In this document: one piece after another, positions 3,423 through 44,681 of the stretch
Layout of the letters: every line of letters starts with the position of its first letter
Position numbering within the stretch: the stretch's first letter is position 1
NCBI RefSeq assembly: GCF_003336875.1
Contig: NZ_QGNJ01000021.1
Coordinates: 1 to 64,000 of the forward strand
Reading direction: 5' to 3'
Length of the DNA stretch: 64,000 nucleotides
Source: Oleisolibacter albus
GTDB taxonomy: Bacteria; Pseudomonadota; Alphaproteobacteria; Azospirillales; Azospirillaceae
The notes under the pieces: generated by a model
Told to the model about the DNA's origin: nothing
The model's input: the letters and a program-made list of their open reading frames with translations, nothing else
The model's database searches: none
Position numbers and translations under genes: made by a program

Positions 3423-4316
3423 CTATGCCGGCAGATGCTCCAGGGCACGGGCGATGCCGGCATGCCAGTCCGGCGCCGGGATGCCATAGAGGCGCTCGAT
3501 CTTGGCACAATCCAGCACCGACCAGGCCGGCCGCCGGGCCGGCGTGGGATAGTCGACGGTGCGGATCGGCGTCAGCAGCGGCACCCGCCGCCCGTCCGCC
3601 GCCGCCTGCCGGAAGATCTCGGCGGCGAATCCATGCCAGCTCGTCGACGGGCTGCCGGCGAAGTGAAACGTGCCCCAGCGCGGATCGGTGGTGGCCGGCT
3701 GGTCCCGCAGCAGGACGGTTCCCATCCGCAGCAGGCAGGCGGCAATGTCGTCGGCGGGGGTGGGGCCGCCCTGCTGGTCGGCGACGACGCGGAGTTCCGG
3801 CCGTTCCGCGCCCAGTTTCAGCATGGTCTTGAGAAAATTCTGGCCATGGGCCGAAAAGACCCAGGCGGTGCGCAGGATGACATGGCGGGGGGCCGCTGCC
3901 CGGACCGCCTGCTCCCCGGCCCCCTTGCTGGCACCATAGACGCCCAGAGGGCAGACCGTGTCCTCCTCGCGATAGGGCCTGTCCGCCGTGCCGTCGAAGA
4001 CATAGTCGGTCGAGATATGGAGGAGCGGTATCCCCAGTGCATGGGCGGCCGACGCCAGGGCGGCGGGACCATCCCGATTGGCGGCGAAGGCTGCGTCCGG
4101 CTGGCTTTCGGCCAGGTCGACCTTGGTGAAGGCCGCCGCATTGACCAGCAGATCATGGCCGGACAGCAGGGGCGCCAAGCCTTCTCCGGTCCGTGCCGAT
4201 TCCAGATTCAGGTCGGCCCGGCCGGGGGCGGTGACATCCCAGCCCGCGGACCGCGCTTGCGCCGCCAGGGCCGATCCGACCTGGCCGGTGGCGCCGGTGA
4301 GGAACAGGCGTGGCAT
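3423..4316 (-). CDS. rfbD: dTDP-4-dehydrorhamnose reductase
   Basis: It catalyses the last step of dTDP-L-rhamnose synthesis, the NAD(P)H reduction of dTDP-4-keto-rhamnose. The 297-residue protein has the Rossmann motif GATGQVGS (8-15), the STDYVFDG segment (102-109) typical of RmlD, and the catalytic Tyr127/Lys131 pair (YGASK). Length is normal. It starts one base past the rfbC stop, so the two form an operon. The first two pathway genes, rfbA and rfbB, are not intact in this window; only a fused remnant is seen at 43507-43707. Confidence 0.95.
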   Translation of the reverse strand: MPRLFLTGATGQVGSALAAQARSAGWDVTAPGRADLNLESARTGEGLAPLLSGHDLLVNAAAFTKVDLAESQPDAAFAANRDGPAALASAAHALGIPLLHISTDYVFDGTADRPYREEDTVCPLGVYGASKGAGEQAVRAAAPRHVILRTAWVFSAHGQNFLKTMLKLGAERPELRVVADQQGGPTPADDIAACLLRMGTVLLRDQPATTDPRWGTFHFAGSPSTSWHGFAAEIFRQAAADGRRVPLLTPIRTVDYPTPARRPAWSVLDCAKIERLYGIPAPDWHAGIARALEHLPA

Positions 4317-4317
4317 C

Positions 4318-4887
4318 TCAGTGCGGTCCGTCCTGCCAGTCGATCAGGCCCAGATCGGTCAACCGCGGCAGTCCACGGTCCTTGTCGGACACCACGGCCC
4401 GGTCCGGACCGACGGGCCAGTCGATGGCCAGATCGGGATCGTGCCAGAGCACACCACCATCGGCGGCCGGGGCATAGGGGGCGGAGCATTTGTAGAGAAC
4501 CTGCGTGTCCGGCTCCAGCGTGCAGAAGCCGTGGGCGAAGCCGCCAGGAATGAACAGCTGCCGGCCGGACTCCGCGTCCAGTTCGACGGCCACATGCTGC
4601 CCGTAGGTCGGCGAGCCCGGGCGCAGATCGACGGCCACATCCAGCAGGCGGCCGCGCACGGCCTGCACCAGCTTGGCCTGGACGAAGGGGGGGCGCTGGA
4701 AATGCAGACCGCGCACGGTATGGATGTCGCGGGACAGGGACATATTGTCCTGCACGAAGCTGACCGGCACGCCGGCGTCCCGGTAGCGGGACTGCTGGTA
4801 GGTTTCGCTGAACCAGCCCCGGGCGTCGCCAAACCGCTTCGGCGTGATGATCAGCACCCCGTTCAGCTTTGTCGTCCGCACGTCCAT
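4318..4887 (-). CDS. rfbC: dTDP-4-dehydrorhamnose 3,5-epimerase
   Basis: It epimerises dTDP-4-keto-6-deoxyglucose at C3 and C5. The 189-residue cupin carries the catalytic histidine in RGLHFQ (His62), the core FIPGGFAHGF (113-121) and the conserved tyrosine in VLYKCS (Tyr132), all as in RmlC. Start ATG at 4887 has AGGTAA about 8 bases upstream. It is the first gene of the rfbC-rfbD pair, diverging from the HIT-family gene at 5030. Confidence 0.95.
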   Translation of the reverse strand: MDVRTTKLNGVLIITPKRFGDARGWFSETYQQSRYRDAGVPVSFVQDNMSLSRDIHTVRGLHFQRPPFVQAKLVQAVRGRLLDVAVDLRPGSPTYGQHVAVELDAESGRQLFIPGGFAHGFCTLEPDTQVLYKCSAPYAPAADGGVLWHDPDLAIDWPVGPDRAVVSDKDRGLPRLTDLGLIDWQDGPH

Positions 4888-9306: not shown

Positions 9307-10389
9307 ATGGCAGTGGCAGGGCCGCATCTGGTTTACGATATCAGTCCGCACGGATTCGGCCATCTGGCCCAGAGCGCCGGGGTGGTGGCGGCGTTGCGCC
9401 GCCGGTATCCCGATCTGCGCCTGACCCTGCGCTGCGCCCATGGGGCGGAGGTGGTGTCCCGCTTCATCCCGCCGCCCTGGGACCGCGCCGATCCGCCGCC
9501 GGAACTGGGCATGGCCATGCTGGGGCCGAACGATGTCGATGTGGACCGCAGTCTCGCCTATTACCGCGACCTGCACCGCGATTGGCACGGGCTGGTGCGG
9601 CAGGAAGGGGCACGCCTCGCGGATCTGCGCCCCGATCTCCTGGTGGCCAATGCGGGCCATGTGGGGCTGGCCGCGGCCCAGGCCCGGGGCATTCCGGCCG
9701 TGGCCGTCAGTTCGCTGGACTGGTACGACATCGCCCGCGCCTATTTTCCGCCCGAAGCCGCTCCCCTGCTTGAGCCGATGCGGGCCGCCTATGCCGGTGC
9801 GGCCGCCTTCATCCGCCTGGATCCGGCCCTGCCCATGGCCGATTTCCCGAATTGCCGCAGCGCCGGCCCGGTGGCGCGGCTGGGGGTCGACCGGCGGGCG
9901 GCATTGCTGGCCGGTCGTCCGCGCTGCCGCCACATCATCCTTGTTTCCTTCGGCGGCTGGCCCGGACAAGGGCCGTTGCAGCGTGTTCCCATGATGGAAG
10001 CGGTGCTCTGGCTGGTCAGCGATCCGGCCCTGGCGGCGCCGGGTCGGCCGGACATCCTGCATGCCGACAGTCTCGGCCTGTCCTTTCCCGACCTGGTCCG
10101 CAGCAGCGACCTTGTGCTGACCAAGCCCGGCTACGGCATGTTCGTCGAGTCCGTCTGCAACGGCACGCGGCTGCTCTCTCTGGAGCGGCCGGACTGGCCG
10201 GAGACAGCGGGCATGGTCGCCTGGGCCGAGCGGCACGGGGTGACGGAGGCCTTGCCGCCCGCTGTGCTGAACACCCCGGCCCTGGATCTGGCCATCACCG
10301 CTCTGCTGGAGCGGCCGGTGCCGCCGCCGCCGCATCCGACCGGCGGAGAGGATGCGGCTGCCATCATCGCCGGCCTGCTCAGGGCCTGA
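9307..10389 (+). CDS. GT-B-like glycosyltransferase (MurG-related)
   Basis: The protein has 360 residues. The N-terminus (VYDISPHGFGHLAQSAGVV) resembles the glycine-rich donor/acceptor loop of MurG-type and UDP-glycosyltransferase folds. The C-terminal half has SSDLVLTKPGYGMFVESV, the typical nucleotide-sugar binding region with a conserved Lys-Pro-Gly. This supports transfer of a sugar from a nucleotide donor, but the substrate cannot be predicted. Its last 11 bases overlap the convergent epimerase gene. Confidence 0.7.
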   Translation: MAVAGPHLVYDISPHGFGHLAQSAGVVAALRRRYPDLRLTLRCAHGAEVVSRFIPPPWDRADPPPELGMAMLGPNDVDVDRSLAYYRDLHRDWHGLVRQEGARLADLRPDLLVANAGHVGLAAAQARGIPAVAVSSLDWYDIARAYFPPEAAPLLEPMRAAYAGAAAFIRLDPALPMADFPNCRSAGPVARLGVDRRAALLAGRPRCRHIILVSFGGWPGQGPLQRVPMMEAVLWLVSDPALAAPGRPDILHADSLGLSFPDLVRSSDLVLTKPGYGMFVESVCNGTRLLSLERPDWPETAGMVAWAERHGVTEALPPAVLNTPALDLAITALLERPVPPPPHPTGGEDAAAIIAGLLRA

Positions 10390-11341
10390 CCGACCGGCGG
10401 TACCAGCGGGCCATCTCGTCCAGCCCCTGCTCCAGCGGGACCGGCGGCTGCCAGTCCAGCAGGGCCCTGGTTGCGCCGATATCCACCTGCAACGGGTCCA
10501 GCAGCGGACCAAGGTCGAGCCTGGGCTGGGCCAGCCGGCGGATACCCCCCAGCAGCGGCTCCGGCACGGCGAACAGGCGCGCCGGCCGCTCCAGGGCCTG
10601 CCCCAGCATCCGGACCAGGGCCGGCACCGTCGGGTCTTCGCCATCGGACACGGTCAGGATCTGTCCGGGCGCCCTGGGGTGGAGAGCCGCCCGCAGCAGC
10701 AGATCGGCCAGATTGGCGACACCGACCAGACTGCGCCGGCTGCGCACGCCGGCAAGCGGCAGGGGCATTCCCCGCTCGACCAGCCGCAGCAGGCGCAACA
10801 GATTGGCGCACACGCCGGGACCGTGGACCAGTGGTGGGCGCACAATCACCAGGTCCAGTCCCGTCCTCGCCGCCAGCGCCTGTAGGGCCTGCTCTGCCAG
10901 GAACTTCGACTGGGCATAGGGACCGTTGGGGGCCGGCACCGATTGTGGGCCGAAAGGAGAGGGGCCGCTGTGATCGCCGAAGACCTTGGCGCTGCTGACG
11001 AAGACCAGCCGCTTGACCCCGGCCCGGATTGCCGCTTCGGCGACACGGATCGAACCCTGGAGGTTGATCTCCTCGTAATCGCGGGGGGTATGGCCGCTGC
11101 TGTGGGCGAGGGCAGCGCAATGGATCACCGCTTCGCATCCGCACAGATCCCGCCAGGGCAGTGCATCGAGTCGCAATTCCCAGCCGGGATATTGATTTGA
11201 GGCCGGTGCGGCGACCAGGGGCGTGCCCCCCTCCCTCGCCGCCGCACGGACGCCGGCACGGACGCCGATTGCCTGCGCCGTGGGATGGGAGACGACCCTT
11301 TGTCCGATGAAGCCATTGGCTCCGGTCACGAAGATCGGCAT
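10379..11341 (-). CDS. NAD-dependent epimerase/reductase (WbpV-like)
   Basis: The 320-residue extended SDR protein has GANGFIGQ (7-14), the VSSAKVFGD serine region and the catalytic Tyr/Lys in GPYAQSKFLAEQ. The pattern VIHCAALAH...RPPLVHGPGV fits the UDP-glucose 4-epimerase family, especially WbpV/VipB-like proteins that reduce 4-keto sugars such as the UDP-QuiNAc precursor. These often work beside undecaprenyl-phosphate sugar transferases; the one in this window is far away at 50991. Sugar specificity is inference. Confidence 0.8.
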   Translation of the reverse strand: MPIFVTGANGFIGQRVVSHPTAQAIGVRAGVRAAAREGGTPLVAAPASNQYPGWELRLDALPWRDLCGCEAVIHCAALAHSSGHTPRDYEEINLQGSIRVAEAAIRAGVKRLVFVSSAKVFGDHSGPSPFGPQSVPAPNGPYAQSKFLAEQALQALAARTGLDLVIVRPPLVHGPGVCANLLRLLRLVERGMPLPLAGVRSRRSLVGVANLADLLLRAALHPRAPGQILTVSDGEDPTVPALVRMLGQALERPARLFAVPEPLLGGIRRLAQPRLDLGPLLDPLQVDIGATRALLDWQPPVPLEQGLDEMARWYRRSVRP

Positions 11342-12923: not shown

Positions 12924-13499
12924 ATGGCTCATGACGGCGAAGAGCTGATCCGCCGCAGCTTTCTCGACAGCGCGGCCAATTTCACTGCCCTGGCCGGCAT
13001 GGCGCCGCAGGTGGCTGCTGCGGCCGAACGCATGATCGCCAGCATCCGCGCCGGCGGAAAGGTGATGTTCTGCGGCAATGGCGGCTCGGCCGCCGATGCC
13101 CAGCATCTGGCCACCGAACTGCTGGGGCGCTATCTGCGCAACCGGCCGGCGTTGCCGGCCCTGGCGCTGACGACCGACAGCTCGGCGCTGACGGCCATCG
13201 GCAATGATTTCGGTTTCGTGGATGTCTTCGCCCGCCAGCTGCGGGGGCTGGGACGGTCCGGCGACCTGCTGGTGGCCATCACCACGTCCGGCAACAGCCC
13301 GAACGTGCTGGAGGCGGTCAAGGCCGCCCGGGAGATGGGCATCGGCGTCATCGGACTGACCGGGCAGGGCGGTGGCGCCCTGCGCGATGCCTGCGACCTG
13401 TGCCTCTGCGTCCCGTCCGCCCATACCCCCCGTATCCAGGAAATGCACATCGCCGTCGGGCATCTGCTGTGCGAACTGGTGGAGAACGCCTTCGCATGA
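12924..13499 (+). CDS. gmhA: Sedoheptulose-7-phosphate isomerase
   Basis: It converts sedoheptulose-7-phosphate to D-glycero-D-manno-heptose-7-phosphate, the first step to the heptose of LPS core or of heptose-containing glycans. The 191-residue SIS-domain protein carries [20 protein letters not shown] (binding loop with zinc-ligand His), TTSGNSPNV and the C-terminal [15 protein letters not shown] with its conserved histidine. Length is normal. Its TGA overlaps the ATG of gmhB. Confidence 0.95.
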
Positions 13500-14023
13500 G
13501 CCCCGTTGCCGCCAAGCCTGCCGCCTTCCTGGACCGGGACGGCGTGTTGAATGTCGATTTCAATTTCGTCCATCGGCCGGACCAGGTGGTCTGGGTCGAC
13601 GGGGCGCCGCAGGCGGTCCGCCGGCTGAACCAGGCCGGATTCTGGGTCTTCATCGTCACCAACCAGTCCGGTATCGGCCGCGGCCATTATGACGAGGCGA
13701 CGGTGGAGCATCTGCATCGCTGGATGCAGACCGAACTGGCGTCCATGGGCGCCCGGATCGACGATGCGCGCTATTGCCCCTATCATCCCGAGGCGCCGTT
13801 GCCGGCCTATCGCTGTGCCTCCGACTGGCGCAAGCCGGAGCCGGGCATGCTGTTCGATCTGGCCCGGCATTGGCCGGTCGATATGGGCCGCAGCTTCATG
13901 ATCGGCGACAAGGACACGGATGTGCAGGCCGCGGCGGCGGCCGGCATCCCCGGCTATCTGTTCCGGGGCGGCAATCTCGATGAGCTGGTGGCGGGCATCC
14001 TGGCGGCGCAGCCGGTGACCTGA
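13496..14023 (+). CDS. gmhB: D-glycero-D-manno-heptose 1,7-bisphosphate 7-phosphatase
   Basis: This HAD-superfamily phosphatase of 175 residues has the nucleophile motif FLDRDGVLN (DxDGxxN), the motif II region [12 protein letters not shown], a zinc-binding loop reading [14 protein letters not shown], and motif III/IV KPEPGML...[12 protein letters not shown]. It dephosphorylates heptose-1,7-bisphosphate. ATG 13496 overlaps the gmhA stop (ATGA), so the pair is coupled. The heptokinase and nucleotidyltransferase that would complete either ADP- or GDP-heptose synthesis are not in the window. Confidence 0.94.
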
Positions 14024-14026
14024 GCG

Positions 14027-15175
14027 TCAGTCGGCCACCGGCCGGTGATTGTCGGACCGTGGAGCCGATGCCACGGCCTGCCTGATGACGCCGGCCAGGG
14101 CCGTGGCCACCCGCGGGCGGTCGAACAGGGAAGCCGCCCGCTGCCGCCCCTCCTGTCCCAGCCGCAGCCGCAGCCCGGCATCGTCGCGCAGCCGGCGCAG
14201 GGCCGTCACCCAGGCATCCGGCCCCTCGGCCAGCAGCCCGCAGCCGCCATCCGCCAGAAGGACGCGGTTCTCACCCACCGGGGAGGCCACCACCGGTCGT
14301 CCGGCGGCCATGGCCTGGATGATCTTGTAACCGGACTTGCCGCGCTCGAACGGGGCGTCGGGCACCGGCATCAGCACGGCATGCACCCCGGAAAGCAGAG
14401 GACCTTCGCTGCTTTCCGCCCAGGGATGGAATTCCTCCGGTACGCCGGGAAGTCCGGCCGGGTGGGCGGCGATGGTGACCAGCGTCAACGCCTGCTCCCC
14501 CGCCAACCGGCGCAGGGGGGCGGCCAGGGCGGCCAGATAGCGGGCCGAGGCGGGCGTTCCCACCCAGCCCAGCCGGAATTCAGCCGCCGCCGACACAGGC
14601 GGCGCGGGGTGGTCGGGATAGCGGCGCAGGTCCACCGGCGTCGGCAGCTTCACCACCAGGCGGGCTCCGGCGGATGCGGCCCACTGGCCGAGCCAGTCAT
14701 TGCCGACCGTGACCGCGGCCGCCCCGGCTGCCAGCCGCTCCAGCTTGTCCGCCAGGATCCGGCGAACCAGGGGGCTGGCATGGCCGGCATAGCGCGTGTG
14801 CCAGGCATCGTCGAAATCCAGCAGATAGGGGCGGCGGCGCAGCAGCCGGCGCTCCAGCGCCAGCGGCAGATAGGGCAGCATCTCCTTCTCGATCCAGATC
14901 AGGTCCGGCGAGCCCGGCCATCCTGGCGTCGTCTGCCCGACCCGCAGCAGCGTGCGCAGCCGCGCGGCGTAATAGCCGGCGAGCCGCAGGGGACTGCTTG
15001 CCTGGCCGGCATAGAGCCGGCGCAGATAGGCGTCATCGAAGAAGGGGCAAGCGGTGACCGCGATGCCCGCTGCGGCCAGATCCGGGATCAGATCCAGCAG
15101 ACGCAGGCGGCTGCTGGCACCCATCCGGTCGTAACGGGTCAGCGCAAGGATCTGCAGGGGCGGCCCCGGTGGCAC
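14027..15175 (-). CDS. Glycosyltransferase, GT-B fold (family 4-like)
   Basis: The protein has 382 residues. The C-terminal half shows RLGWVGTPASARYL, then PFERGKSGYKIIQAMAAGRP and a GLLAEGPDAW segment, the usual nucleotide-sugar site with conserved Lys and Glu-like positions of GT4 enzymes. The start at 15175 is a GTG; no better ATG lies ahead of the conserved N-terminus (ILALTRYDRMGASSRLR). It is convergent with gmhB, with only a three-base gap. It probably builds LPS or EPS; sugar specificity is unknown. Confidence 0.8.
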   Translation of the reverse strand: MPPGPPLQILALTRYDRMGASSRLRLLDLIPDLAAAGIAVTACPFFDDAYLRRLYAGQASSPLRLAGYYAARLRTLLRVGQTTPGWPGSPDLIWIEKEMLPYLPLALERRLLRRRPYLLDFDDAWHTRYAGHASPLVRRILADKLERLAAGAAAVTVGNDWLGQWAASAGARLVVKLPTPVDLRRYPDHPAPPVSAAAEFRLGWVGTPASARYLAALAAPLRRLAGEQALTLVTIAAHPAGLPGVPEEFHPWAESSEGPLLSGVHAVLMPVPDAPFERGKSGYKIIQAMAAGRPVVASPVGENRVLLADGGCGLLAEGPDAWVTALRRLRDDAGLRLRLGQEGRQRAASLFDRPRVATALAGVIRQAVASAPRSDNHRPVAD

Positions 15176-15237
15176 GGTCGGTTCGGTGCCGCCATCCTAA
15201 GCCCCGCGCGGTCAGGGGGCCATTCCCCCGGAAGGGG

Positions 15238-15558
15238 TCAGTCCAGCGTACTCATGATGGAGAAGCACAGGGCGTCGCCCTGGGCGTGCAGGGTCTTCAG
15301 CGCATCCTTGGGCAAGGGGATCTTCTTGACCCGGCAATAGGCGACGATAAGCCGGGCCAGCTGATAGCTTTCCACCTCCAGCGCACCGCTGACCCCGGCT
15401 GTGGACTGGCTGACCAGCCGGATCGACGGCGGCGGGCCTTCCAGCACCTGCACCTCCACGATGCGGCGGCCCGGGTCGAACCCGTCGGGCGGCACCGTCT
15501 GGAAGACCGCCCGCAACTCGTCATTGGAGAAGATGATATGCCGGATCTCGGTGATCAT
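15238..15558 (-). CDS. Conserved-looking hypothetical protein, cotranscribed with sigma-54 activator
   Basis: This 106-residue soluble protein has no signal peptide or membrane helix. I do not recognise a family. Its ATG lies 11 bases after the stop of the sigma-54-type regulator upstream, so the two very likely share a transcript. Composition is balanced, with two predicted helical stretches (ESYQLARLIVAYCRVKKIPL; KDALKTLHAQGDALCFSIM). A small partner of the regulator is possible but unproven. Confidence 0.65.
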   Translation of the reverse strand: MITEIRHIIFSNDELRAVFQTVPPDGFDPGRRIVEVQVLEGPPPSIRLVSQSTAGVSGALEVESYQLARLIVAYCRVKKIPLPKDALKTLHAQGDALCFSIMSTLD

Positions 15559-40623: not shown

Positions 40624-41685
40624 ATGTCTTCCTTCCTGGTGACGGGGGGCGCCGGCTTCATCGGCTCCCATCTGGTGGCGGCGCTGCTGGAGCGTGGCCA
40701 TCATGTCCGTGTTCTCGATGATCTTTCCACCGGGTCGGCTCCCGCGGTGTCTCCGGGTGCCGATCTCATTCTTGGCGATGTGGCCGACAGGGCGGTGGTA
40801 CGGCAGGCGATGCTGGGAATGGATGGGTGTTTCCATCTGGCCGCCGTGGCCTCGGTCGAACGCGGCCATCAGGACTGGCTGGGCTGCCATCGTACCAATC
40901 TGACCGGCAGCATCACCGTGTTCGATGCGGCGGCGAAGGCCGGACGCGTTCCGGTGGTCTATGCGTCCTCGGCCGCCGTCTATGGCGACAATCCGGTGCT
41001 GCCCCTGTCCGAAGAGTCGCAGACGGGGCCGTTGTCGGCCTATGGCGCCGATAAGTTGGGCTGTGAGTATCACGGGCGGGTCGCCGCCCTGATCCACAAC
41101 GTCCCCACGGCCGGGCTGCGCTTCTTCAACATCTATGGCCCCGGCCAGGACCCACGCTCGCCCTACACCGGCGTCATCGCCATTTTCGCCGACCGTGCCC
41201 GCCAGGGGCAGCCGCTCCGCATCAATGGCGATGGCAGCGCCCTGCGTGATTTCGTCTATGTCGGTGACGCTGTGGCCCATCTGCTGGCCGCCATGGGACG
41301 TCTGCACGGACACCGGGCGGCGGTGGCCGAGATTTTCACCGTCTGCACCGGCCGTCCCACCAGCATTCTTGAACTGGCCACGCTTCTGCGGCGCCTGACC
41401 GGATCGGACAGCCCGATCCAGCACGGTCCTGCCCGGGCGGGGGATATCGCCCGTTCCCTGGGTGATCCGCGGCGGGCCATCCGTCTTCTCGGCGTCCAGG
41501 CTTCGACTGTGCTGGAGCAGGGTTTGTGCCACACCCTTGATTATTCAGGCCTACGCCCGCCATTGATGCAGCCAGGCGGTGGCCATCAGAATGGTCCACA
41601 GCCGCTGGGCATGGTCCTGCCGGCCACCGAGATGTTCGGCCAGAGCGCGGCGAACCGGGGCGGGATGGAACAGTCCGTCGGCTGA
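40624..41685 (+). CDS. NAD-dependent epimerase/dehydratase (GalE/WbpP-like) with C-terminal extension
   Basis: The 353-residue SDR has TGGAGFIGSHL (7-17), VYASSAAVYGDN and the catalytic Tyr/Lys in SAYGADKLGCEYH, then NIYGPGQDPRSPYTGVIAIF, as in UDP-GlcNAc/Glc 4-epimerases. The enzyme fold should end near residue 305-310. The last 40-45 residues (Pro/Gly/Gln-rich) are encoded antisense to the 3' end of the asparagine synthase gene, a 135-bp convergent overlap. The tail probably reflects loss of an earlier stop codon. Confidence 0.88.
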   Translation: MSSFLVTGGAGFIGSHLVAALLERGHHVRVLDDLSTGSAPAVSPGADLILGDVADRAVVRQAMLGMDGCFHLAAVASVERGHQDWLGCHRTNLTGSITVFDAAAKAGRVPVVYASSAAVYGDNPVLPLSEESQTGPLSAYGADKLGCEYHGRVAALIHNVPTAGLRFFNIYGPGQDPRSPYTGVIAIFADRARQGQPLRINGDGSALRDFVYVGDAVAHLLAAMGRLHGHRAAVAEIFTVCTGRPTSILELATLLRRLTGSDSPIQHGPARAGDIARSLGDPRRAIRLLGVQASTVLEQGLCHTLDYSGLRPPLMQPGGGHQNGPQPLGMVLPATEMFGQSAANRGGMEQSVG

Positions 41686-43476
41686 CAGCCCCTGTCCGGT
41701 CAGCAGGTCCTCGGCCCAGCTTCGCAGCGGGCCGCGCAGCCACATGCCGACGGGTGGGCTGAATCCACTCTTGCCCCCCGGCAGGGGAGGAGGCGCCTGG
41801 ACGAGGTCGGCCGGCAGCAGACGTTGCCGCACCTGCCGCAGCAGATGCTTGGGGCGTGCCGGGTCCACCAGCCCGGGGGGGAGACGCAGGCACAGCTCAA
41901 CGACGGCGCGGTCCAGCAGGGGGACCCGCACCTCCAACCCATAGGACATGCTGGCCCGGTCCACTTTGGCCAGAATATCGTCCGGCAGGTACCAGGTCAT
42001 GTCCTGCAGGCGCATACGGTCGGCGAAGGGACGGGTGTGGCCGGGCAGCGGCAATGGTGGTTCCGGATCGGCGCCAATGACGACCTGGTGCGGCCGCGGC
42101 CAGATCCGCAGGGCCGCCTCATAGGCCAGATCCGCCGTCGTGGCCTGGAGCACGCCGGCGGCGGCACGGCTGGTGTCCAGCAGACTGCGGCGCCACAACC
42201 GGTGAGGCAGAAGCGGCTGGAGGCGGCGCAGGACCGCCGCGGGGGTCCGCGTCAGCAGCCCGCCACCGGCCTGCCGCAGCGGTCGCGGCAGGCGGGCCGC
42301 CCGCGTCCACAAGGCGGCTGTCATGGCATAGCGCGGATAGCCCGCGAACAACTCGTCGCCTCCATCCCCGGACAGGGCGACGCTGACGCGGGTCTTGGCC
42401 AAGCGGCTCAACAGCAGTGTCGGGATCTGGGACGGATCGGCCAGGGGCTCATCGTACAGCGCGGGCAGCGCCGGAATCAGGGTCAGCGCATCCCGATCAG
42501 TCAGCAGCTGGTCTCGATGTTCGGTTCCCAGCCGGTGGGCGATGGCCGCCGCGGCAGGACGTTCGTCGCTTCCCCCTTCGAAGCCGATGGTGAAGGTACG
42601 GACCGGCTCCGATGTTGCCTCGCACATGGCCGCCACCACCGTGCTGCTGTCCAGCCCGCCGGACAGGAAGGCACCCAAAGGGACGTCGGCGCCCATCTGG
42701 CGCCGGACCGCCGCCCTGATCGTGGTGGTCAACGCCTCGACCGCCTCGGCCTCGCTCATGGGTTCGGTGCAGGCGGAACTCTGTTCCAGCGACCAGAAGG
42801 GCCGCAGCTCGAGCGGGTCCGGCGATCCCGGTGCCAGCCGGACCCAGTGTCCCGGCGGCAGATGGGCCACGCCGGCATAGATGCTGCGGGGTCCGGCAAT
42901 GTAGCCCCGCCGCAGCAGGCTGGTCAGGGCCTGCCGGTCCAGCGGCAGGTTGGCCGGGCTGGCCGCCCGGATCGCCTTCAGCTCCGACGCGAACATCCAG
43001 CTGCCGTCCACGCGCCCCCAATAGAGCGGCTTGATGCCCACCGGATCGCGGGCCAGGACCAGTTCCCGCGCCTGCCGATCCCAGAGGGCGATGGCGAACA
43101 TGCCGTTCAACTGGTCGAGCGTGGCGGCGAGGCCCCAGCGGGCGACAGCCTCCAGCAGGACCTCCGTGTCGGCATGGCCATGGAAGCGGACCCCCTGCTC
43201 CTGGAGCGCGCGCCGCAGATCCGGATGATTGTAGATCTCGCCGACGAAACTCAGAACCCAGCGCCCGTCCTGGGAGATCATGGGTTGTCGGCCGGCGGGG
43301 GACAGATCGAGGATGGCCAGCCGCCGATGGCCCAGCGCGATCCCAGCATCCAGATCAAGAAACGAACCCTCGCCATCGGGACCGCGATGGGCAAGGCTGG
43401 TCAACATACGGTCGAGGAGCCGGGCGACGGCACCGGCCGGGCCGGGCTGCGGCAGGAAACCGGCAAGACCACACAT
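41551..43476 (-). CDS. asnB: Asparagine synthase (glutamine-hydrolysing), EPS-associated
   Basis: The 641-residue class B enzyme starts MCGLAGF, with Cys2 as the glutaminase nucleophile, and has the RGPDGEG site. The ATP-pyrophosphatase loop GAFLSGGLDSSTVVA and the region SGDGGDELFAGYPRY follow. AsnB-like proteins in polysaccharide loci are thought to amidate sugar carboxylates or side groups rather than make free asparagine. The substrate here is unknown. The rfbB-rfbA remnant lies 30 bases upstream on the same strand. Confidence 0.9.
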   Translation of the reverse strand: MCGLAGFLPQPGPAGAVARLLDRMLTSLAHRGPDGEGSFLDLDAGIALGHRRLAILDLSPAGRQPMISQDGRWVLSFVGEIYNHPDLRRALQEQGVRFHGHADTEVLLEAVARWGLAATLDQLNGMFAIALWDRQARELVLARDPVGIKPLYWGRVDGSWMFASELKAIRAASPANLPLDRQALTSLLRRGYIAGPRSIYAGVAHLPPGHWVRLAPGSPDPLELRPFWSLEQSSACTEPMSEAEAVEALTTTIRAAVRRQMGADVPLGAFLSGGLDSSTVVAAMCEATSEPVRTFTIGFEGGSDERPAAAAIAHRLGTEHRDQLLTDRDALTLIPALPALYDEPLADPSQIPTLLLSRLAKTRVSVALSGDGGDELFAGYPRYAMTAALWTRAARLPRPLRQAGGGLLTRTPAAVLRRLQPLLPHRLWRRSLLDTSRAAAGVLQATTADLAYEAALRIWPRPHQVVIGADPEPPLPLPGHTRPFADRMRLQDMTWYLPDDILAKVDRASMSYGLEVRVPLLDRAVVELCLRLPPGLVDPARPKHLLRQVRQRLLPADLVQAPPPLPGGKSGFSPPVGMWLRGPLRSWAEDLLTGQGLSADGLFHPAPVRRALAEHLGGRQDHAQRLWTILMATAWLHQWRA

Positions 43477-43506
43477 CAGCGAACCGCCCGAGCGGGCGCC
43501 GCCTCA

Positions 43507-43707
43507 TCAGGGGCGTTCATCGGCGACCCGGTGCAGATACGCGCCATAGCCGGTCTTGCCCAGCGGGGCAGCCGCGGCCACCGTCTCTGGACCGGCCACA
43601 TAGGTCGGCTGGTCCAGGTTGCACAGCGTGATCCCGTCCTGTCCGCTCAGCATCCGCACGACGCAGGAGCCGATGAAACCTGCGCAACCCGTAACAAGGA
43701 CCCGCAC
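43507..43707 (-). pseudogene. Chimeric remnant: RfbB N-terminus fused to RfbA C-terminus
   Basis: A 66-codon frame starts at GTG 43707. Its first part (VRVLVTGCAGFIGSCVVRML, then NLDQPTY) matches the N-terminus of dTDP-glucose 4,6-dehydratase, with the second Gly of the usual TGGAGFIG changed to Cys. Its last part (AAPLGKTGYGAYLHRV) matches the C-terminal tail of glucose-1-phosphate thymidylyltransferase (family pattern APLxKxGYGxYL). The catalytic parts of both enzymes are absent. The simplest reading is a large deletion that joined neighbouring rfbB and rfbA in frame. A functional dTDP-rhamnose pathway would need intact copies elsewhere. Confidence 0.8.
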
Positions 43708-44051
43708 CGCCGCTGCCTCCGTAAGTTCAGGGTATAGAGCGAAGAGGGTTTTGTTTCGGCAGTCAAGACAACAAACGGGTTAGTTTCGGCCTGCGGAGGG
43801 GTGCATTGCAATTGCTTGGTGCTTTTTCCGAAGTAATACCTAAGGGCTTTCTCTTTGAAATCACAAAGTGTCAACAAAATATCGCGGATATTGCGACATA
43901 TTTTATTGTATATTCATGTCCTTATCTTTCTTGGATCTGGGTTGGGTTGTACATGGCATCCAAAACCAAGGGTAGATCTATGTTTTGACGGATCGACCTT
44001 TTTGAGGTAGGTCTACACGTATATATGGTAAATGTTCCGGAATGATCGCCC
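43708..44051. other. AT-rich divergent region upstream of the EPS export genes
   Basis: This 344-bp region between the rfb remnant and the Wza-like gene is markedly AT-rich from about 43800 to 44035. It contains several short inverted repeats, such as the palindrome TAGATCTA at 43973-43980 and GACCT/AGGTC around 44000-44022. It most likely carries the promoter of the export operon and regulator sites, perhaps for the sigma-54 activator or a MucR-like protein. I found no confident -35/-10 or -24/-12 pair. Confidence 0.45.
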
Positions 44052-44681
44052 ATGGACGCCTCCGATCTGCTGTCGCGACGACGTACCCTTATGACCGGCT
44101 TGGGCGGTACCTTGTCACTTCTGTTTCTGTCGGCGCAGGCAGCGGCGGATGCCGTGGCCACGGGGGCATCCGCCAGCGCACCGGCGGGCGGGCCAAGTGA
44201 TGGGGCAAGTGGTGGGGACGCGAAGTCACTCTACAGGCTGGGGGCCGGCGACAAGCTGCGGATCGTCGTCTTCGGTGAGGATGACCTTTCCGGAGAATTC
44301 GAGGTGGACAGCGGCGGCTCGCTGTCGCTGCCGCTGATCGGTGAGATCGTGGCAGTGGCCAAGACACCGCGCGATCTGGAGCGGGATGTGGCCAAGGCGC
44401 TGTCCGACGGCTATCTCGTCAATCCGCGCGTCAGCATCGAGGTTCTGAACTACCGGCCTTTCTTCATCCTGGGCGAAGTCAAGGAGCCGGGGAAATACCC
44501 CTATGTCAACGGCATGACGGTGCTGAACGCCGTGGCCGTGGCTGGCGGCTACACCTATCGCGCGCGCAAGGACCAGATCGTCATTGTCCGGGGCGGTGAC
44601 AGCGGCAGGGAAACCATGGCGCAGGAGGGATCGTCCGTGCTGCCGGGCGACATCATCCGCGTGCCCGAGCGGCTCTTCTGA
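44052..44681 (+). CDS. Polysaccharide export outer-membrane protein (Wza/GumB-like)
   Basis: The 209-residue protein has a signal peptide with a twin-arginine-like run (RRRTLMTGLGGTLSLLFLSAQAAA) and a Ser/Gly/Ala-rich linker. A Poly_export domain follows (YRLGAGDKLRIVVFGEDDLS, GSLSLPLIGEI, LVNPRVSIEVLNYRPFFILGEVKEPG), then a SLBB-like segment (VNGMTVLNAVAVAGGYTYRA). It lacks the C-terminal amphipathic helix of E. coli Wza, like short GumB-type proteins. The next gene starts one base after its stop. Confidence 0.92.
   Translation: MDASDLLSRRRTLMTGLGGTLSLLFLSAQAAADAVATGASASAPAGGPSDGASGGDAKSLYRLGAGDKLRIVVFGEDDLSGEFEVDSGGSLSLPLIGEIVAVAKTPRDLERDVAKALSDGYLVNPRVSIEVLNYRPFFILGEVKEPGKYPYVNGMTVLNAVAVAGGYTYRARKDQIVIVRGGDSGRETMAQEGSSVLPGDIIRVPERLF

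Follow-up and report, generated by a model that had tools for sequence, protein, structure and literature searches.

In fusion pseudogenes, the in-frame deletion remnants of bacterial genomes, the beginning of one gene runs on into the end of another that lies downstream and points the same way, and the short frame which we describe here, from Oleisolibacter albus, is built likewise. Its two putative parents are the dTDP-glucose 4,6-dehydratase RmlB (RfbB; TIGR01181 and PRK10084) and the glucose-1-phosphate thymidylyltransferase RmlA (RfbA; TIGR01207). With RmlB it shares the first 47 residues, including the GxxGxxG glycines and the D.xTY region, but it lacks about 310 residues when set against the 357-aa RmlB of genome G034. 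With RmlA it shares the last about 23 residues (the K..YG.YL tail), but the nucleotidyltransferase domain, which makes up all of RmlA ahead of this tail, is absent.

The chimeric frame and its surroundings

The window, by which we mean the whole stretch of 64,000 nucleotides that was analysed, holds a 66-codon frame whose translation is MRVLVTGCAGFIGSCVVRMLSGQDGITLCNLDQPTYVAGPETVAAAAPLGKTGYGAYLHRVADERP, with GTG as the first codon. The frame, its parts and its neighbours are the following, with the basis of each assignment in brackets.

43507..43707, minus strand: 66-codon chimeric frame, with the GTG start at 43707 and the TGA stop at 43507-43509
43567..43707, minus strand: RmlB N-terminal portion, residues 1-47, with the GxxGxxG and D.xTY region (PRK10084 at E 7.2e-7; 13 of 15 conserved columns)
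43510..43581, minus strand: RmlA C-terminal portion, residues about 43-66 (29.6 bits, 0 of 20,000 shuffles; full-length RmlA model)
43567..43584, minus strand: putative join zone, codons 42-47 (comparison with relatives)
43716-43720, minus strand: GGAGG, Shine-Dalgarno-like in sequence and putatively in function, 8 nt ahead of the GTG
41551..43476, minus strand: asnB-like amidotransferase gene, 641 aa (TIGR01536 over its cut-off; the top match, TIGR03108, under its cut-off)
44052, divergent: polysaccharide-export-like gene (best family matches under their cut-offs)
about 44677: chain-length/kinase gene (TIGR01005 over its cut-off)

The ATG of asnB, at 43476, lies on the same strand as the frame and 30 nt past its TGA, in agreement with the original prediction of a still open frame directly upstream of asnB. 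The gap upstream of the frame reads AT-rich. GC at the three codon positions of the frame (0.70, 0.54 and 0.78, against 0.75, 0.53 and 0.83 in asnB) resembles that of the window's genes. Terminator-like stem-loops, one per strand, were also detected at 43879-43899, between the frame and the export gene (2 found, against 0.6 expected from shuffles).

The N half was matched by NCBIfam PRK10084 (dTDP-glucose 4,6-dehydratase) at E 7.2e-7, with residues 1-45 on profile positions 1-45, and by TIGR01181 at E 2.7e-5 (23.4 bits, residues 2-44 only); the NCBIfam families other than RmlB gave E 2.1e-4 and above. Since the chimera is a fragment, both scores are far under the whole-protein cut-offs (365.1 bits for TIGR01181). 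The best Pfam match of the frame, Epimerase, stayed just under its cut-off (E 0.001, 18.9 bits against 20.9). Out of 15 N-terminal RmlB columns conserved at >=90% over 19 relatives' loci (L010-L028), which were found with the chimera as the query and therefore favour matching columns, 13 are kept, among them all three GxxGxxG glycines; the two altered ones are G8C and A37V. The similarity to RmlB stops at residue about 45-50, and the remaining dehydratase, with its catalytic region, is absent. RmlB starts of several genera are 41-57% identical to the N half, with no clear nearest genus; that of G034 shows 53-55% identity, and the RmlA end of the same genome looks alike by eye.

For the C half, a full-length RmlA model built from 8 loci placed the chimera first among the 821 frames of the window, weakly (E 0.009; the next frame had E 3), and in this match the C-terminus of RmlA (profile positions 259-289 of 295) coincides with that of the frame. 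With a model built from 18 RmlA C-termini, the chimera obtained E 1.3e-7, against 0.47 for the second best of these 821 frames, and the C half scored 29.6 bits, a value reached by none of 20,000 shuffles (best shuffle 12.9); the 18 ends were picked through a YG.YL anchor, so that those letters are built into this model, while the 8 loci were not so chosen. Neither the N-terminal nucleotide-binding signature nor the nucleotidyltransferase domain of RmlA is present in the chimera. The frame thus starts as RfbB and ends as RfbA, as had been predicted. Because the frame is RmlB-like up to residue about 47 and RmlA-like from about 43 onwards, the join most probably falls within codons 42-47, which are mostly alanine and fit both parents.

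Gene order and distribution in relatives

In all 11 genomes of the genus, O. albus included, rmlB is directly followed by rmlA, and the two halves of the chimera stand in the native order and direction of these neighbouring genes. With both homologies significant and the B-before-A order found throughout the genus, the predicted deletion scar of two rhamnose genes is well supported. In 9 of the 10 other genus genomes the gene immediately preceding rmlB is rmlC, and in the remaining one, G004, rmlC is found on the opposite strand, ~3.6 kb past rmlA. An rmlB-rmlD-rmlA order was seen in G034, its rmlD being assigned by reading the frame.

At E 0.001, the frame was matched in 77 of the 82 family genomes, O. 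albus included. Outside the scar's own locus, the matches listed stop at residue 36-50 and sit in open frames of at least 205 aa, the exception being one in G021. The latter (residues 1-63, 45%) was considered as a second chimera and rejected, as it is a gapped alignment to an intact 328-aa frame without the RmlA-type tail and looks like an ordinary epimerase. The full 66-residue architecture was found, among the 82 family genomes, in O. albus only. In an even sample of 385 class genomes from a larger group, matches at E 1e-9, a threshold which would miss a very diverged chimera, were limited to O. albus and G034 (residues 1-49). The plasmid records gave no DNA match to the 401 bases around the frame at E 1e-5 (distant mode). 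These comparisons speak against a conserved small protein, since the full architecture, and with it the join, was seen in none of the genomes compared but that of O. albus. The two outcomes named beforehand as speaking against a scar, halves that fail to align and a short ORF that is widely conserved, did not occur.

Other irregular rml genes were seen during the survey. Contig C5 of G033, another member of the class, carries a stand-alone RmlA C-terminal fragment (L045, 1477-1719; 81-aa frame, 73 bits, profile positions 222-285), which is possibly another rml remnant. In G022 (L016, 590-1629, minus strand), rmlB is apparently split over two frames beside rmlA and an rmlD-like gene, by a frameshift or a sequencing error. 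Contig C58 of G014 (9543-10541) has a full-length rmlB match of 435 bits with one in-frame TAG, and an intact rmlB is located on C5 of that genome.

Rhamnose genes elsewhere in the genome

The dTDP-rhamnose genes identified in the window and on a second contig, C16, are the following.

4318-4887, minus strand: rmlC (over the curated cut-off, 207 bits)
3423-4316, minus strand: rmlD (over the curated cut-off, 301 bits; under the cut-off of a second rmlD model, PRK09987)
C16:14376-15380: intact rmlB, the only rmlB over the cut-off in the genome (473 bits)
C16:13451-14305: intact rmlA, the only rmlA over the cut-off in the genome (493 bits)

The rmlC and rmlD of the window lie about 39 kb from the scar, where surviving rfbC and rfbD genes had been predicted, and they are the only copies over the cut-offs in the genome; the best relatives under the cut-offs score 145 bits (rmlC-like, on C3; cut-off 155.75) and 109 bits (rmlD-like, on C42; cut-off 224). 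The search for a full rfbAB elsewhere in the genome, which the original prediction had proposed, revealed the one intact rmlB-rmlA pair on C16. By homology, the dTDP-rhamnose pathway of the strain looks complete, with its genes split between two contigs.

Derivation of the chimera from the C16 pair was considered and rejected, as the N half is just 41-43% identical to the C16 RmlB. Since C16 and G004 share 81% identity in RmlB and 83% in RmlA, it is more likely, on the evidence of these identities, that the scar goes back to another, divergent copy of rmlBA. The claim that the locus once had its own rhamnose supply therefore stands in part: a second, divergent rmlBA copy was apparently lost, but the supply itself was not, as rmlBA is found on C16 and rmlC and rmlD in the window.

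The part of C16 that holds rmlBA (13427-15389; L172, 8428-10390) is lower in third-position GC (0.61-0.76) than the genes on its left (0.85-0.91) and on its right (0.81-0.88). A foreign origin of the pair, on account of its low third-position GC (0.65-0.66), was considered and dropped, as the same-genus G004 proteins are 81-83% identical and their genes have a third-position GC of 0.91-0.92.

asnB loci of relatives

We compared 110 asnB loci, the window's own included, 30 of them with ~1.5 kb and 80 with up to 5 kb on each side; the sequence upstream of asnB amounts to 200 bases or more in all 110, to at least 1 kb in 106 and to at least 3 kb in 66. The intact rfbB-(rfbD)-rfbA order that was expected directly upstream of asnB was found in none of the 109 other loci. 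High-scoring RmlB or RmlA matches were detected in 4 loci, never directly upstream of asnB: in L121 they lie ~4.4 kb upstream on the other strand, and in L122, L151 and L160 downstream. The model of RmlA ends matched only L122 and the window's own locus among the asnB loci, and a model of RmlB starts (11 rows, two of them with end letters filled in by hand) added L119, downstream of asnB, plus many weaker and shorter matches.

The closest relative of the window's asnB, in G004, is 58% identical, and the other 9 genus genomes have no match at E 1e-100. Upstream of the G004 gene is a divergent frame of 439 aa, and no rml match was found there. With the closest family asnB at this identity and no rml gene found beside it, the deletion can be neither mapped nor dated.

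Origin of the chimeric frame

We consider it very likely that the frame is a gene remnant, left when an rmlB-(rmlD-)rmlA segment underwent an internal deletion that kept the frame. The ancestral stretch would have carried rmlB and then rmlA, perhaps with rmlD between them, and a loss that began near codon 47 of rmlB and spared only the last 23 or so codons of rmlA would have joined the two ends in frame within an alanine-rich stretch. Going by the gene lengths in G034, the deletion would have removed ~1.7 kb, or 2.6 kb with rmlD. The deletion presumably took place at the present site, and the ancestral order would then have stood before asnB. The 66-residue product would consist of the first part of the nucleotide-binding fold and the C-terminal tail; because the bulk of both enzymes is missing, no dTDP-sugar activity is expected and the product is probably inert. 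The loss was probably neutral, and would have been tolerated because the same steps can be provided by the intact rmlB-rmlA pair of C16.

The G8C and A37V changes fit relaxed constraint, and the gene-like codon-position GC and the open frame suggest an event that is not very old. Since a random deletion keeps the frame in one case out of three, the open frame needs neither selection nor a special cause, and together with the good ribosome-binding site it fits recent decay and retention alike.

A variant of the remnant reading, rather than an alternative to it, is that the already deleted segment came with asnB in a transferred polysaccharide cassette. Such a transfer would agree with an asnB that has no close relative in the genus and with an N half for which no genus is clearly the nearest. 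However, the scar resembles the window in codon-position GC, and no donor with the scar was found among the 82 family and 385 class genomes (the latter at E 1e-9), so that we regard the transfer as possible but doubtful.

The scar could also have been kept as a translated leader that aids the expression of asnB, by translational coupling or by preventing early transcript termination, in which case the leftover of two biosynthetic genes would be a regulatory element of the polysaccharide locus. The Shine-Dalgarno-like site and the GTG, the closeness of asnB, which runs in the same direction, and the lack of a strong ribosome-binding site directly before asnB, as far as the sequence was read by eye, are all in line with a leader. 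However, a hairpin before asnB that might serve coupling was rejected, as the RNA around the start of asnB has no advantage in folding over its shuffles (z 1.28 and 0.21, with 183 and 106 of 200 shuffles at least as good). Within 43450-44100 no promoter of the sigma-70-like type, the one type covered, was detected, and the frame may be open without selection. We therefore hold a leader to be very unlikely.

An artefact of assembly or sequencing is a highly improbable source of the join: the genome is a draft of 44 contigs, but the scar lies well inside its 64,952-base contig (C14), and a mix-up with the C16 rmlBA pair is unlikely given the low identity of the N half and a best DNA match of the scar to the 17-kb stretch around that pair which has E 0.032 and falls outside the pair. 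It is hardly credible that the frame codes for a novel small protein that has its own function, since its open, well initiated frame with gene-like codon-position GC is offset by two altered conserved columns and by an architecture present in no other of the 82 family or 385 class genomes (the class at E 1e-9).

Comparison with known fusion pseudogenes

As a remnant of rmlB and rmlA, the scar probably records a second rmlB-rmlA pair that once stood in the polysaccharide locus, and it accounts for an ORF which might otherwise be labelled a partial epimerase. The remnant is real but of an ordinary kind, and it leaves general understanding unchanged. From general knowledge of in-frame deletion remnants, we take the scar to belong to this class of fusion pseudogenes, from the other members of which it differs in its particular gene pair alone.
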